From contig VSJD01000160.1 in the NCBI GenBank assembly GCA_008636095.1, positions 1-10,000 on the forward strand: a stretch of DNA of 10,000 bases, given 5' to 3'. Shown piece after piece: positions 3,688 to 8,490 of this stretch (its first letter is position 1; each line of letters begins with the position of its first letter). The notes below the pieces were generated by a model. That model made no database searches. It worked only from the letters and a program-made list of their open reading frames with translations, and had not been told where the DNA came from. The position numbers and the translations under genes are program-made. The DNA is from Kiritimatiellota bacterium. GTDB lineage: Bacteria; Verrucomicrobiota; Kiritimatiellia; JAAZAB01.

Positions 3688-3875
3688 AATGGTTAATGGC
3701 AAATGGTTGATGGTTAATGGACGGAGAAGACGATAAGGAATGGTTAATGGTCAATGTCCGGCTGATGTCAATGTCCGGCTGACAGCATCAACCATTTCCT
3801 TTTCCCCGTCCACCATTTACCATTTCTTAAAATTCCCCGTCCCCATCGACCATCCACCATTAACCATTGACCATT
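3688..3875. repeat. GGTTAATGG-word array between convergent genes
   Basis: This array begins three bases after the kinase stop and runs into the 3' end of queF. The 12-mer AATGGTTAATGG occurs at 3688-3699 and 3739-3750, with a related block at 3702-3720. Its exact reverse complement is at 3857-3868, and further CCATT/ACCATT words fill 3790-3826. The sequence can thus fold as a long imperfect hairpin with about a 100-base centre. Because it lies between convergent genes it might serve as a bidirectional terminator, but there is no clean U-tract directly after a short stem, so that is inference. Confidence 0.7.
3750..3782. repeat. 16-bp tandem duplication inside the GGTTAATGG array
   Basis: The word GTCAATGTCCGGCTGA occurs at 3750-3765 and again at 3767-3782, identical and separated by one base. 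It lies at the centre of the surrounding inverted words and looks like a recent slippage or local duplication. Confidence 0.8.
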
Positions 3876-4514: not shown

Positions 4515-4714
4515 TTTCGGCGCGGCGCTTGCGCGCCTTGTCCCTCGACTCAGCTCGGGATCCTGAGCCTGCCAAAGGACTCAAGGTTAACCCTTCGTCG
4601 CGCCGAAAGGCAACCCCTGAGCAAGTCCAGCTTTTACGGGGCGCGTCGAAGCTCGCCGGCCCTGAGCGAAGTCGAAGGGTAGAGCGGATATCTCACGCCA
4701 AGCGCGAAATATCC
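4515..4714. repeat. Cluster of nested inverted repeats
   Basis: TTTCGGCGCG (4515-4524) is the exact reverse complement of 4599-4608. GGCGC (4524-4528) pairs with GCGCC (4533-4537). ACCCTTCG (4590-4597) pairs with CGAAGGGT (4673-4680). The blocks 4542-4559 and 4660-4679 are imperfect inverted copies of a CCCTTCGACT..CTCAGGG-type word. GGATATCTC (4686-4694) pairs with GAAATATCC (4706-4714) with one G:T-type mismatch. These pairings cannot all form at once, so this looks like several palindromic elements or decayed copies side by side rather than one RNA fold. Confidence 0.6.
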
Positions 4715-4739
4715 GGGTTAAAAATAAGCAAAAATATCA

Positions 4740-4767
4740 TTGACGGCAGAAGGTTGTTTGATATTCT
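4740..4767 (+). promoter_or_regulatory. Candidate sigma70-type promoter for the large secreted-protein genes
   Basis: TTGACG (4740-4745) matches the -35 consensus at five of six bases. TATTCT (4762-4767), with a 16-bp spacer, matches the -10 at four of six. It lies in the AT-rich part of the gap, about 110 bases upstream of the ATG at 4879. The -10 is weak, so this is tentative. Confidence 0.3.
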
Positions 4768-4791
4768 AAATATGAATAGCCTTTTCATGTA

Positions 4792-4862
4792 AACGGATAG
4801 TTCTAACCTGCGTTTTAATGCCCACTGGCAGGAACTCACAGGGCTGAACGAATAGCTCTAAC
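4792..4862. repeat. Spaced 16-bp direct repeat in the leader of the large secreted-protein gene
   Basis: AACGGATAGTTCTAAC (4792-4807) and AACGAATAGCTCTAAC (4847-4862) match at 14 of 16 positions and start 55 bases apart. They lie downstream of the candidate promoter and immediately before the Shine-Dalgarno-like AAAGGG at 4863-4868. The paired arrangement resembles an operator or leader element, but no regulator is known. Confidence 0.45.
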
Positions 4863-4878
4863 AAAGGGCCAGTTGATC

Positions 4879-7800
4879 ATGCGCAAATCATCCTGGATGT
4901 TAGTGATCCTGGCACGCCATGGTGTAGCCCTCCCTGCTTCGCCAGAGCGCTACGCGAGGGCAAGTCGGCTACTCGCCTGGGCGAAGCGCTCTCGCCTGGG
5001 CGAAGCGCTCCGGCGGAGCCTGGTCGGCGGAGCCTGGAGCCTGGTGACGGCCGCCGTGTTGACCTCAACTGGCGTCGCATTCGCCGGGACTACAAACACG
5101 ATCCCGTATTCAGACAACTTTGAAAACTACACCAACGGCACCCCACTGATTAACGGTACGAACGGATGGTACGGGGATTCCAGCGCCATAGTTGTGCAGA
5201 ACCTTACCGTCCGCACGGGAACAAATGCCGCCGTCATTCCGGATGGTTGCATGCTCTCCAACCGGTTCCAGAGCAGCCTCCCCACCAATGTCTGGATTCA
5301 GATGGATCTGCGGCCCGGCCTGTTCGATGTGACAAATAACTGGGTGGTAGATACAAACCAGGCGGGGTTGTTCTTGGTGGACAGCAATGGCAATTTCGTG
5401 GTGCATAATGGACCGGCAACCGATCCCTACAACTCAACGAACTGGGTGGTGGTGACGAATGTCGGGGTGGGAACAAGCGGGACGAACTGGGTGCGGATCA
5501 ACATTTACGAAAAATACACGCATACCAATTGGGATTTGTATGCGGACGGTATCCTGGTGACCAACAACATTGGATTCGTCAACACGAACCTGACGAATTT
5601 TTCGGGGTTTAATATTGATAACGGTACTACGACAAGTTACCTGGACAATGTTTCCGTGTCGGCCATAAATACTAATCAGTGTCCGCTGATTGTGATACCG
5701 CCCACGCCGTCGGTGAGGAACTTCTTTGTGGGGGAGACGCCGTCAGTACAGACGGTTAAGATATACAATGTATGGTCGGACCCGATTGGCTTCGAGATCA
5801 CAACGAATCAGGCGTGGATTTCGGCCTCGCCGACGGATGGCAATGTGGAGCCCGGAGCTACGAATGATGTGACGCTGACGTATGCATCCACGGCATCGTG
5901 GCAAGGGGGCGCCAGTAATGCGATCGTGACGGTGGTGGCGACCAATGGGACAGACCGATGGAACACCCAGACGGTGGCTGTGGTCATAAATATAATGGAT
6001 CTGCGGGTGTCGCCGTCGCTCATTACCAACACGGTTGCGGCGGGCTTGACGCCGACCAATCGGGACTTCAGCGTCATTAATGCGGGGGCAGGCTCATTTG
6101 CTTATACGGCGACGATTACCAACGACTGGCTGAGTTTTTCGGGTCTGTCGGCAACGAGCGGGACAGTAAACGCATTCGGCACGAACACGCTGACATTGAC
6201 CTACTCCAACACGGCCTGGTGGACGCCGGGCATTACGAGTAACACCACGATTACGATTGCTTCCACCGACAGCGGCGGGGCGACGCTGACGGTGGATGTG
6301 GCGTTGACCCCGAGCATGGTGTTGCAGGCCGTGCCCGCCCAATTGGTGAATGTGGTCATGCAGGGGGAGACGGCAAGCACGAATTTCCAAGTGTGTTCGA
6401 CAAATCAGGGGGTTGCGAATTATACCCTTGCCACGAACCAGCCCTGGCTGGTGGTAAGCCCGTCGGACGGCAGTTTGACGGGGGAGGTGTATGGAGCAAC
6501 AAACACGATCTTGGTCACCTACACGAACACTTTGGGACTGACGGTGGGGGCGCATTACGGCATGATCACGATCAGCGCGCCGGGATGCGTGAGTGTGCCC
6601 ATAAACGTGACCCTGACCGTGCAAGCGCCGCCAATGCTGAGCGTCAGTCCCACGCTGGTGACCAACACGGTGATGGCAGGGCAAAATCTGGATGGGCAGA
6701 CGTTGCAGGTCTGGAACGGGAACACAAATTATGGGATTGGATATCAGGTCACGACGAACGCGTCGTGGCTGTACGTGCAGGTGACAAACAACTATTTGGC
6801 GCCGCTGACGACGAACACCTTGATGATAACGGTCGGCTCATTGACGTCGGCCGGGGATGTGCCGTCCAACTATACCGGGACGATTACCATAACGGCGACA
6901 AACCGGGCCGAGGGCTCGCCGGCCACCATTCCGGTTACCATAATAGTAAACCCCAAACCGCGACTGGCCTTCAACCCCACCAATTTATCCCAAACGATAT
7001 TGCAGGGGCAGGATGCGGTGAACCAGGGTTTTGACGTTTGGAATTCAAATGGATATTACACGCTGGACTATACGATTTCAAAGGGCGTTACACCGTGGCT
7101 GGTGCTTACGCCGACAAGCGGGACCAGCACGGGACAGCATCAGCGCATCGAGGTGCAATACAGCACGGCGAACCTGCCGGCGGGACGAACGAATGCGGCG
7201 ATAACGATCGTTGGCTGGGCGTGGGACGGAGTGCACACGAAGAGCATCGTTGAGACGCAGACGATTGATGTGGCGCTGTCGGTAACACCCTTTGCGACTT
7301 TGACGACCGATGCACAGTCGGAGTACGCGTATACTGTGCGCAAGGGGTTGACACCGCCGGACACAGTGTTTTCTGTATGGAACGGGGCCAATCCTCCAAA
7401 CTCCATGTATTTCACGGTGAGTCCTTTAACGAGCTGGTTGAGTGTGACACCGTCATCGGGAACGAGCACGGGTAACTGGGTTGAGCTTCAGGTACAGGCA
7501 GATGCCACCGAGATGAAGCCCGGGGTGGTTTATAGCGGCACGGTGCAGATTGATGCGATCGACGCGGGATCAGGCGCGGCGGCCTACGGATCACCGTACG
7601 CGTTTACCATTTCCGTCGTCCTGCGCGAGTTTAAAGGGTTTGATTTCCAGGGAGGGCTCTCGGGGGCCTCGGACCTGGTACTGTATCGCGAAGCTAATGG
7701 GGCGTGGGAAATAAGGAATCTGATAAGCAACTATGCGACGACCCAGTTTCTGGGTGGTGCGGGATACCAGGCGGTGCCTGGGGATTACAACGGCGATGGC

Positions 7801-8490
7801 ATCACATGGATGGGGGTCTATCGGCCGGCAAGCGGAAGCTGGTATGCGCAACAGGTGGGGGCGGGAAGCGCGCAAGTCGTTGAGATGCAGCAATGGGCCG
7901 GAGCTGAGTATGTGGGCGTGCCGGGTGATTATGACGGGGACGGCAAAACGGATCCGGGTGTCTATCTGGAACAGAGCGGATTATGGATGTTGCTGCTGAG
8001 TGGGAGTGGCTACCAGCAGGTATCCGGGATATTTGGCGGCCCGGGATATACGGCCTTGCTGGCGGGGGATTATGATGGCGATTGCATAGTGGATCCGGGC
8101 GTCTATCACCGCACATCGGGATTATGGATATTGTTGCTCAGTACGAGCCCGTTGGTCATTTCGGGAACATTTGGAGGCAGTGGATTTGTGTCCGTGCCGA
8201 CGGACTACGACGGCGATGGCATAACGGATCCGGCGATATATGAGACGGAGACCGGGTACTGGTCCATATTGCCGTCCACAACACAGGGCCTTTGGACTCG
8301 TCAGTTTGGAGGCACGGCGATGTCGGCCACATTGGTGCCGGCACCCGGAAATTATGACGGGGCAGGGGGCGCCGACCTCGGGTTGTATGATACGACCACA
8401 TGGCGTTGGTATATTATGACGCTTGACGACGTACCGCTGGCATGGGGCTATCCCATGGGACGCTTGGGTTGTTTCCCCGTCCTGCCCTGA
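4879..8490 (+). CDS. Giant exported protein: jelly-roll-like domain, about six BACON-like domains, FG-GAP/VCBS-like repeats
   Basis: The 1203-residue product starts at ATG 4879, with AAAGGG at 4863-4868; a TTG at 4873 is a less likely start. A signal peptide ends at about residue 69 (VAFA before GTTN) but is interrupted by a 44-codon insertion (residues 12-55). Residues 70-262 form a concanavalin/LamG-like domain shared with the next gene. About six beta-sandwich repeats follow, roughly 269-373, 374-480, 481-583, 584-693, 694-803 and 804-916. Their W-L-x-x-x-P-x-x-G pattern (for example WLVVSPSDG and WLSVTPSSG) resembles BACON domains. Residues 917-1203 carry FG-GAP/VCBS-like repeats with calcium-type motifs DYNGDG (969), DYDGDG (1017), DYDGDC (1064), DYDGDG (1109) and a decayed NYDGAG (1158). 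The sequence is rich in Asn and Thr. No transmembrane anchor or PEP-CTERM tail is visible, so secretion or surface attachment by unknown means is inferred. Glycan binding or adhesion is plausible but unproven. Confidence 0.88.
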   Translation: MRKSSWMLVILARHGVALPASPERYARASRLLAWAKRSRLGEALRRSLVGGAWSLVTAAVLTSTGVAFAGTTNTIPYSDNFENYTNGTPLINGTNGWYGDSSAIVVQNLTVRTGTNAAVIPDGCMLSNRFQSSLPTNVWIQMDLRPGLFDVTNNWVVDTNQAGLFLVDSNGNFVVHNGPATDPYNSTNWVVVTNVGVGTSGTNWVRINIYEKYTHTNWDLYADGILVTNNIGFVNTNLTNFSGFNIDNGTTTSYLDNVSVSAINTNQCPLIVIPPTPSVRNFFVGETPSVQTVKIYNVWSDPIGFEITTNQAWISASPTDGNVEPGATNDVTLTYASTASWQGGASNAIVTVVATNGTDRWNTQTVAVVINIMDLRVSPSLITNTVAAGLTPTNRDFSVINAGAGSFAYTATITNDWLSFSGLSATSGTVNAFGTNTLTLTYSNTAWWTPGITSNTTITIASTDSGGATLTVDVALTPSMVLQAVPAQLVNVVMQGETASTNFQVCSTNQGVANYTLATNQPWLVVSPSDGSLTGEVYGATNTILVTYTNTLGLTVGAHYGMITISAPGCVSVPINVTLTVQAPPMLSVSPTLVTNTVMAGQNLDGQTLQVWNGNTNYGIGYQVTTNASWLYVQVTNNYLAPLTTNTLMITVGSLTSAGDVPSNYTGTITITATNRAEGSPATIPVTIIVNPKPRLAFNPTNLSQTILQGQDAVNQGFDVWNSNGYYTLDYTISKGVTPWLVLTPTSGTSTGQHQRIEVQYSTANLPAGRTNAAITIVGWAWDGVHTKSIVETQTIDVALSVTPFATLTTDAQSEYAYTVRKGLTPPDTVFSVWNGANPPNSMYFTVSPLTSWLSVTPSSGTSTGNWVELQVQADATEMKPGVVYSGTVQIDAIDAGSGAAAYGSPYAFTISVVLREFKGFDFQGGLSGASDLVLYREANGAWEIRNLISNYATTQFLGGAGYQAVPGDYNGDGITWMGVYRPASGSWYAQQVGAGSAQVVEMQQWAGAEYVGVPGDYDGDGKTDPGVYLEQSGLWMLLLSGSGYQQVSGIFGGPGYTALLAGDYDGDCIVDPGVYHRTSGLWILLLSTSPLVISGTFGGSGFVSVPTDYDGDGITDPAIYETETGYWSILPSTTQGLWTRQFGGTAMSATLVPAPGNYDGAGGADLGLYDTTTWRWYIMTLDDVPLAWGYPMGRLGCFPVLP
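4912..5043. mobile_element. 132-bp GC-rich palindromic/repeat element inserted in frame in a signal peptide
   Basis: The segment splits codons 11 and 56 of the large protein gene. CCTGG occurs at 4908-4912 and 5040-5044, exactly 132 bases apart, consistent with a 5-bp target duplication or homologous ends. Inside, a 19-bp unit (CTCGCCTGGGCGAAGCGCT) is perfectly tandem at 4972-4990 and 4991-5009, and CGGCGGAGCCTGG occurs at 5011-5023 and 5025-5037. Inverted words also occur: CTTCGCC 4938-4944 with 4999-5005, and AGAGCGC 4944-4950 with 4986-4992. It has no transposase, so it would be a non-autonomous or passive repeat. CCTGG also recurs inside the element, so the duplication is not certain. Confidence 0.65.

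Follow-up and report, generated by a model that had tools for sequence, protein, structure and literature searches.

How a gene can take up 132 bp of repeat DNA within the coding sequence of its signal peptide and still be read through is the question raised by this locus. The window (the whole stretch of 10,000 nucleotides that was analysed) comes from genome G000, an assembly of 3.8 Mb in 357 contigs, and holds a gene whose predicted product matches the Pfam families BACON_2 and Cep192_D6. In an initial annotation, made from the letters alone, it had been proposed that a repeat was inserted here in frame. In the ORF starting at ATG 4879, the 132 bp between the two CCTGG words (4908-4912 and 5040-5044) were confirmed to be in frame and free of stops, and their deletion indeed leaves ATC-CTG-GTG-ACG. 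Since CCTGG stands at both ends, placing the insert at 4908-5039 is equally valid.

The signal-peptide insert and its layers

Homologous loci that lack the insert were looked for and found in two congeneric genomes, G003 (locus L062, MRKPSWMLLIMMTVAVLGDAVAG) and G004 (locus L078, MRRPFWMLVIVVAAAMVALTQDAFAG), whose upstream DNA aligns with the window, and in the homologue P0003 (MRKSSWMLVITMTAAVFAVNGGAFAG), whose protein is 82% identical to the window protein. These empty sites support the proposal that repeat DNA was inserted in frame in the signal peptide and is missing from near relatives. Up to AFAG, L078 and P0003 encode the 26 residues predicted for the insert-free signal peptide, and L062 shows one more small indel besides the missing insert. 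An identical copy of the window protein (P0001) is recorded on five contigs; therefore, an error in a single assembly is unlikely to be the source of the insert.

When G000 was searched with positions 4900-5050, at least 42 matches were obtained, mostly over query positions 92-125, and the longest match elsewhere in this genome spanned 73 of the 151 query bases, both among the 40 of 98 candidates that were scored. A single element of 132 bp was rejected, as the insert resolves into four 33-bp units. Stepwise removal of the best-matching 33-mer (scores in Table 1) ended after four steps exactly at the empty-site sequence, and the match score of each of the two oldest layers, 3 and 4, was reached by none of 5000 dinucleotide shuffles. 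The window insert consists of a 33-bp element present four times, copy within copy: three times on the plus strand and once on the minus strand. Of the earlier description as tandem and inverted repeats, the repeats stood, while a single 132-bp array did not; likewise, the further genomic copies that had been expected were found, at 36 places, as the 33-bp unit and not as the 132-bp sequence.

Table 1. Features of the host gene, its insert and the neighbouring paralogue (window coordinates; matches are to the 33-bp consensus)
Feature	Position	Strand	Basis and remarks
Host gene	4879..8490	+	1203-aa BACON-domain protein, signal peptide split by the insert; ORF and Pfam
Whole insert	4913..5044	+	132 bp = 4 x 33; empty sites L062, L078 and P0003; stepwise 33-mer removal
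Layer 4 (outermost), first 19 bp	4913..4931	+	24/33; other pieces at 4965-4971 and 5038-5044
Layer 3, one inverted 33-bp copy	4932..4964	-	24/33
Layer 4, middle 7 bp	4965..4971	+	33-mer removal
Layer 2, first 19 bp	4972..4990	+	32/33; repeat search; other piece at 5024-5037
Layer 1 (innermost), intact 33-bp copy	4991..5023	+	33/33
Layer 2, last 14 bp	5024..5037	+	33-mer removal; repeat search
Layer 4, last 7 bp	5038..5044	+	33-mer removal
Signal peptide, distal part	5044..5085	+	VTAAVLTSTGVAFA; alignment with L062, L078 and L077
Downstream paralogue P0011	8509..10000	+	continues past the window end; signal peptide MTKPSITLAIVAVTIVVALTGDAFA uninterrupted

Among the 46 homologues of the host protein, or 47 sequences with P0001, the conservation of the 44 inserted residues was checked. 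All 44 occur only in P0001 (1/47); in P0007, a homologue with 50% identity, 27 extra and related residues stand at the same position and include VALPASPER as in the window. The older layers of the insert are thus common to the window gene and P0007. They may derive from an exchange between paralogues, because none of them is present in P0003, the closer homologue, while related residues occur in P0007, the more distant one. Four further homologues (P0012, P0023, P0029 and P0031) carry an 11-residue segment like ARQGVALRRSL ahead of the hydrophobic stretch, at the same place in the signal peptide. The DNA of P0012 (L275) has, at the equivalent position, an element match of 24/33; for P0023, P0029 and P0031 the segment was recognised in the protein sequence alone. 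With P0007, five homologues thus have element-like inserts at one signal-peptide position, which could be a hotspot or reflect exchange between paralogues. In our reading, insertion, sharing or exchange has affected this site on more than one occasion. The most hydrophobic stretch of 12 residues scores 1.81 (Kyte-Doolittle) in the window protein versus 2.47 in P0003, and export of the window protein despite the insert seems plausible.

Other repeats were noticed in the window. Intergenic tandem arrays, several with a period of 7 bp, lie at 1523-1683 and 3688-3875, and upstream of the host gene (4543-4680) there are intergenic repeat-like stretches in which ccctgagcgaagtcgaaggg and a related piece near 4548 were recognised by eye.

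The 33-bp unit in other genes and genomes

The consensus of the unit, CTCGCCTGGGCGAAGCGCTCCGGCGGAGCCTGG, is GC-rich. Its 31-base core was found, with at most 3 mismatches, at 142 places in five genomes of the genus (36, 13, 34, 29 and 30 places), while the reversed pattern used as a control gave no place in the same genomes. In the fetched loci there were 148 distinct copies matching at least 27/33, and column frequencies drop sharply beyond the block of 33 bases. As the searches were built on the consensus of clear copies, worn copies are undercounted in these figures, and the genomes searched are incomplete assemblies (G002 is 70% complete). Among 288 genomes sampled from the class, the element was present in eight of ten from the same family and in none of the 278 others; within this sample it is confined to one family.

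Several traits that might define such a unit were not supported. A palindromic nature was not borne out: self-complementarity (18/33 with its own reverse complement) was equalled by 1512 of 5000 shuffles, and fold z-scores of -0.62, -1.14 and 0.10 gave no hairpin beyond shuffles. No inverted pair of the kind that forms the terminal repeats of MITEs was obtained in a repeat search of 4700-5300. The consensus has no stop in any frame; stop-freedom as an adaptation was not supported, 3589 of 5000 consensus shuffles being stop-free as well.

Copies inside genes are common. Using as criterion an ORF of at least 300 aa with 40 aa on each side, 50 of the 148 copies lie deep in ORFs versus 592 of 1200 positions drawn at random from these loci, so that any avoidance of genes is only mild. 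Copies in ORFs and elsewhere are equally worn (mean match 31.18 versus 31.15). Pfam matches were obtained in 30 of 40 host ORFs scanned (40 of 48 distinct ones, the window's own being scanned separately and seven left out). By our own assignment from these matches, the hosts include PheT (two), AtpG, MutL, MetG, TrpE, the GTPase Der, MetX/MetW fusions (two), RACo and PilM; such a match need not mean that the element lies inside the domain, and by compared coordinates only the AtpG and TrpE copies lie within the matched stretch.

For frame use, 147 of the 148 copies were considered (L174 was left out). Of these, 48 lie deep within joined ORFs with a length of 300 aa or more; they were distributed over the six frames as 12, 12, 10, 10, 3 and 1 (chi-square p = 0.014, with copies of one hairpin or heptamer family not being independent). 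An in-frame stop was present in 1 of these 48 versus 28 of 288 when the copies were placed in all six frames. The two rare frames encode LAWAKRSGGAW, in which a common variant base creates a stop, and the very basic RLRRSASPRR; the bias is in part due to that variant base, which gives TAG in the one frame. The biases in frame and stops suggest that the inserts are translated.

Natural empty sites were also available in four core genes. In atpG, G000 has 33 bp more within the ATP-synt match, where G004 is empty, and G004 has 66 bp more at another place (two nested copies in opposite orientation), where G000 is empty; the gamma subunit of the ATP synthase would accordingly be 11 residues longer in one species and, elsewhere, 22 residues longer in the second. 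In pheT, 66 bp are present in G000 and G002 and absent in all others aligned (G004, G003, G006, G012 and G005). The trpE gene has +33 in G004, +66 in G002 and +51 in G003, being empty in G000, G001, G005 and G011, and metG has +33 in G003 and +75 of mixed repeats in G001, being empty in G000, G004 and G011. The longest ORF per locus was aligned; the trpE match of G002 is flagged with two internal stops and the metG match of G001 with one. Once the 33-bp layers are removed, the alleles are as long as their naturally empty counterparts, no base being duplicated or missing, and show point differences; the G002 allele of pheT becomes identical to that of G004 over the 22 bases shown. In none of the four genes was a target duplication found at the empty sites, nor one of the AG type known from GC clusters. 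Layer removal does not yield the empty site in trpE of G003, which in our reading looks like a nested copy minus 15 bp. Besides this insert, those of metG in G001 (+75) and of P0007 (+27 residues) are off the multiple of 33. The aligned alleles (+33, +66, +51, +75 and +132) are all divisible by three.

The site in trpE (L305-L309) is filled in G002, G003 and G004 and empty in G000, though the pheT insert is common to G000 and G002. This pattern could have arisen by precise loss, through replacement by recombination or from repeated insertion. Part of a repeat like ATTCCCGAC...GTCGGGAAT was seen in frame in metG of G001 (L320).

Nesting was also followed beyond these genes. In a removal test on 145 copies, excision of 33 bp restored another copy (at least 28/33) 12 times; among the other lengths from 24 to 42, this happened twice at 34 bp, once at 40 bp and never at the remaining 16. 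At the looser threshold of at least 25/33, the counts were 15 at 33 bp versus 0 to 5 at other lengths. When split copies were searched for, 13 rows resulted. Five have +33 between the halves; of the five with +19, four are nests of this kind read to the inner half, and the rows that remain are the fifth +19 and those with +20, +27 and +46. Among the five +33 rows, two hold a diverged subfamily and one a quite different 33-mer. The subfamily, CTCGCCGTCGCGAAGCGCTATGGCG[GA]AGC[GA]CGG, is 33 bp long and nested in ordinary copies in two species (L283 and L280; G000:C81:7528-7588 and G004:C70:44333-44393). The different 33-mer, TCCCCCTTCGCGAGGCCGCTTCGGCGGGACACG, stands inside an element copy at the element's own self-nesting point (L016/L289, G000:C224:5245-5305), and matches to it of at least 27/33 occur in 6 distinct contexts among the fetched loci. 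This case suggests that several 33-bp families may share one way of inserting.

Insertion sites and the origin of the copies

Flanks were analysed in 125 un-nested copies, that is, those without an element-like flank. Directly to the left of the element, 53 of them have GA and 29 have CT or TT. Flanks of k bases that are identical at the two consensus edges were seen in only 0 to 2 copies at any k between 2 and 9, where shuffling gave means of 4.5 (k=2) and 0.5 (k=4). When the edges were shifted by 1-2 bases, some matches of 2-5 bp appeared, such as 19/125 (k=2, shift 1/0) and 9/125 (k=4, shift -1/2); in our reading these reflect target preference (T^TC, heptamer arrays, hairpins) and not duplication. 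CCTGG as a target-site duplication was rejected as a general feature, since the other empty sites show none and CCTGG is also the element's own end.

Hairpin loops (stem of at least 6 bp) contain 23 of 146 copies, compared with a shuffled mean of 4.35 (maximum of 12 in 200) and with 68 of 4000 random positions. Of the 23, 11 belong to a single repeat found in G003, ATTCCCGAC-loop-GTCGGGAAT, and when it is set aside, 12 of 134 copies remain in loops (shuffled mean 2.99, maximum 7). In hairpins of this type (L290-L304), G003 carries the 33-bp element, and G001, G002 and G004 carry a different insert of about 38 bp. Imperfect arrays of 7-bp repeats, (ttcgacg)n and (cattctg)n among them, also hold copies, and several of these copies share a phase (L014, L024, L027, L030, L054, L055 and others).

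From the differences in presence between genomes and from the nesting, we infer that copies move. The explanation that we consider quite probable is a small non-autonomous mobile element of 33 bp which has spread in one Kiritimatiellota family, nests in itself, duplicates no target and is tolerated in genes as 11 residues. Such an element would enter in either orientation, adding 33 bp without duplicating the target sequence, and would be able to enter older copies of itself. As 33 is divisible by three and the consensus has no stops, an insertion within a gene would add 11 translated residues and often be tolerated. The 44 residues added to the signal peptide in the window would stem from four such insertions, which happened at the site itself or, in part, in a paralogue from which they were then transferred. 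The missing duplication, the GA or T at the left flank and the excess in hairpin loops suggest that insertion may proceed via single-stranded or hairpin DNA.

Which activity moves the element is a matter of weighing. HUH (Y1) enzymes of the RAYT/TnpA-REP type insert without target duplication. It is a real, if tentative, possibility that the unit is a REP-type element moved by such a transposase via single-stranded DNA. Single-stranded circular intermediates are mentioned for IS608 and ISDra2 (PMC6006769). The empty sites with no duplication, the GA flank, the excess in hairpin loops (also without the G003 repeat) and the trpE site, empty in G000 and filled in G002, G003 and G004, would all agree with it, as would the matches to Y1_Tnp in four of the five genus genomes. 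However, the consensus has no GTAG or CGTC tag at its ends (CTCG...CTGG, reverse strand CCAG...CGAG) and no demonstrable palindrome, and G002, with 34 places, has no Y1 match, though it is only 70% complete. A Y1 transposase next to copies of the element was looked for and not found: ten fetched Y1 loci (1.7-3.3 kb each) contained no match of at least 22/33, against a background of 5 places in 145,487 bases of other loci; by coordinates, the copy nearest to a Y1 match is about 3.2 kb away (G000:C203). Spread by host processes alone, that is, by template switching, gene conversion and recombination and with no dedicated enzyme, is rather unlikely in our view. The inserts at the same position in P0012, P0023, P0029, P0031 and P0007 do look like shared ancestry or conversion, and many copies sit in heptamer arrays and hairpin repeats, but a constant step of 33 bp at unrelated sites and within copies needs defined ends, which would be unexpected from template switching alone.

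Two further explanations leave the inserts silent or take them as old. In the mitochondria of Magnusiomyces, ribosomes bypass byp elements, and the presence of copies in conserved core genes would be easily explained if these, too, were bypassed or spliced out. We regard this as very unlikely, because DNA that is skipped needs neither a scarcity of in-frame stops and of two of the six frames nor alleles that are all multiples of three. As for the 44 residues, an origin as a long-standing functional extension of the signal peptide, and not as an insertion, is hardly credible: the residues in P0007, the 11-residue insert of four homologues at the same place and the ALRRSL segment, which sets arginines directly ahead of the hydrophobic stretch, could be read in its favour, but near relatives lack the residues and their DNA consists of four copies of a repeat also present in unrelated genes.

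For the mobile 33-bp element, a broader and doubtful, though possible, reading is that the unit's own mechanism sets its length, duplicates nothing and perhaps allows exit without a trace (trpE of G000), so that core proteins are rebuilt stepwise by an 11-codon module, with at least one quite different 33-bp family using the same frame-keeping machinery.

Comparison with known repeat elements

To our knowledge, 33 bp would rank among the smallest mobile DNA units. No account of this element was recognised in the literature covered, in which subscription papers are thinly represented. Because its empty sites are clean, insertion can be read from sequence, and the set of copies amounts to a natural experiment on the tolerance of proteins, core proteins included, to inserts of 11 residues. 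It also makes the spread of repeats of the REP and RPE kinds more accessible to study.

The likeness to Rickettsia palindromic elements (RPEs) that had been pointed out holds in concept. RPEs are described as short in-frame repeats in unrelated genes, fused to the host ORF (PMC10969869, PMC3733652), and the 33-bp unit, too, lies in frame in ORFs of unrelated function. According to these descriptions, by which we set the two apart, RPEs are about 150 bp long and form ten families (PMC10969869), RPE-4 and RPE-6 being classed under short CGTC repeats (PMC3733652), whereas here one 33-bp unit is added in steps, nests in itself, belongs to another phylum and is not demonstrably palindromic.

Intragenic REPs are described as 20-40 bp long, with some in ORFs that include repair genes and tRNA synthetases, and as frequent in the verrucomicrobium Opitutus terrae; dimers or groups encode 20-30 residues and clusters 43-82, and shorter homologues were used for comparison in N-terminal cases (PMC3733652). 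With 33 bp and 13 to 36 places per genome (at most 3 mismatches), the unit has the size and high copy number of REPs, but it differs from the intragenic ones in having neither a GTAG/CGTC tag nor a palindrome above shuffles. The main text of that paper uses none of the words 'nested', 'empty site' and 'multiple of three' (PMC3733652).

Partial likenesses are found elsewhere. The short palindromic repeats of Volvox organelles also lie within one another, but they are described as ranging from 11 to 79 nt and as lying almost entirely outside coding DNA (PMC2670323). Yeast mitochondrial GC clusters (GC42) share with the unit a GC-rich mobile sequence of about 40 nt (42 nt), merging with kin and an unsettled mechanism; compared by their description, they differ in a putative AG target duplication and in belonging to an organelle (PMC4478555). 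Enterobacterial RU are small mobile repeats with intragenic copies as well, but they measure 103-168 bp and are MITE-like (PMC2759123). In-frame repeat elements are thus already known as RPEs and intragenic REPs; what is new here is that copies are added in steps of 33 bp, nest in one another and leave no target duplication.
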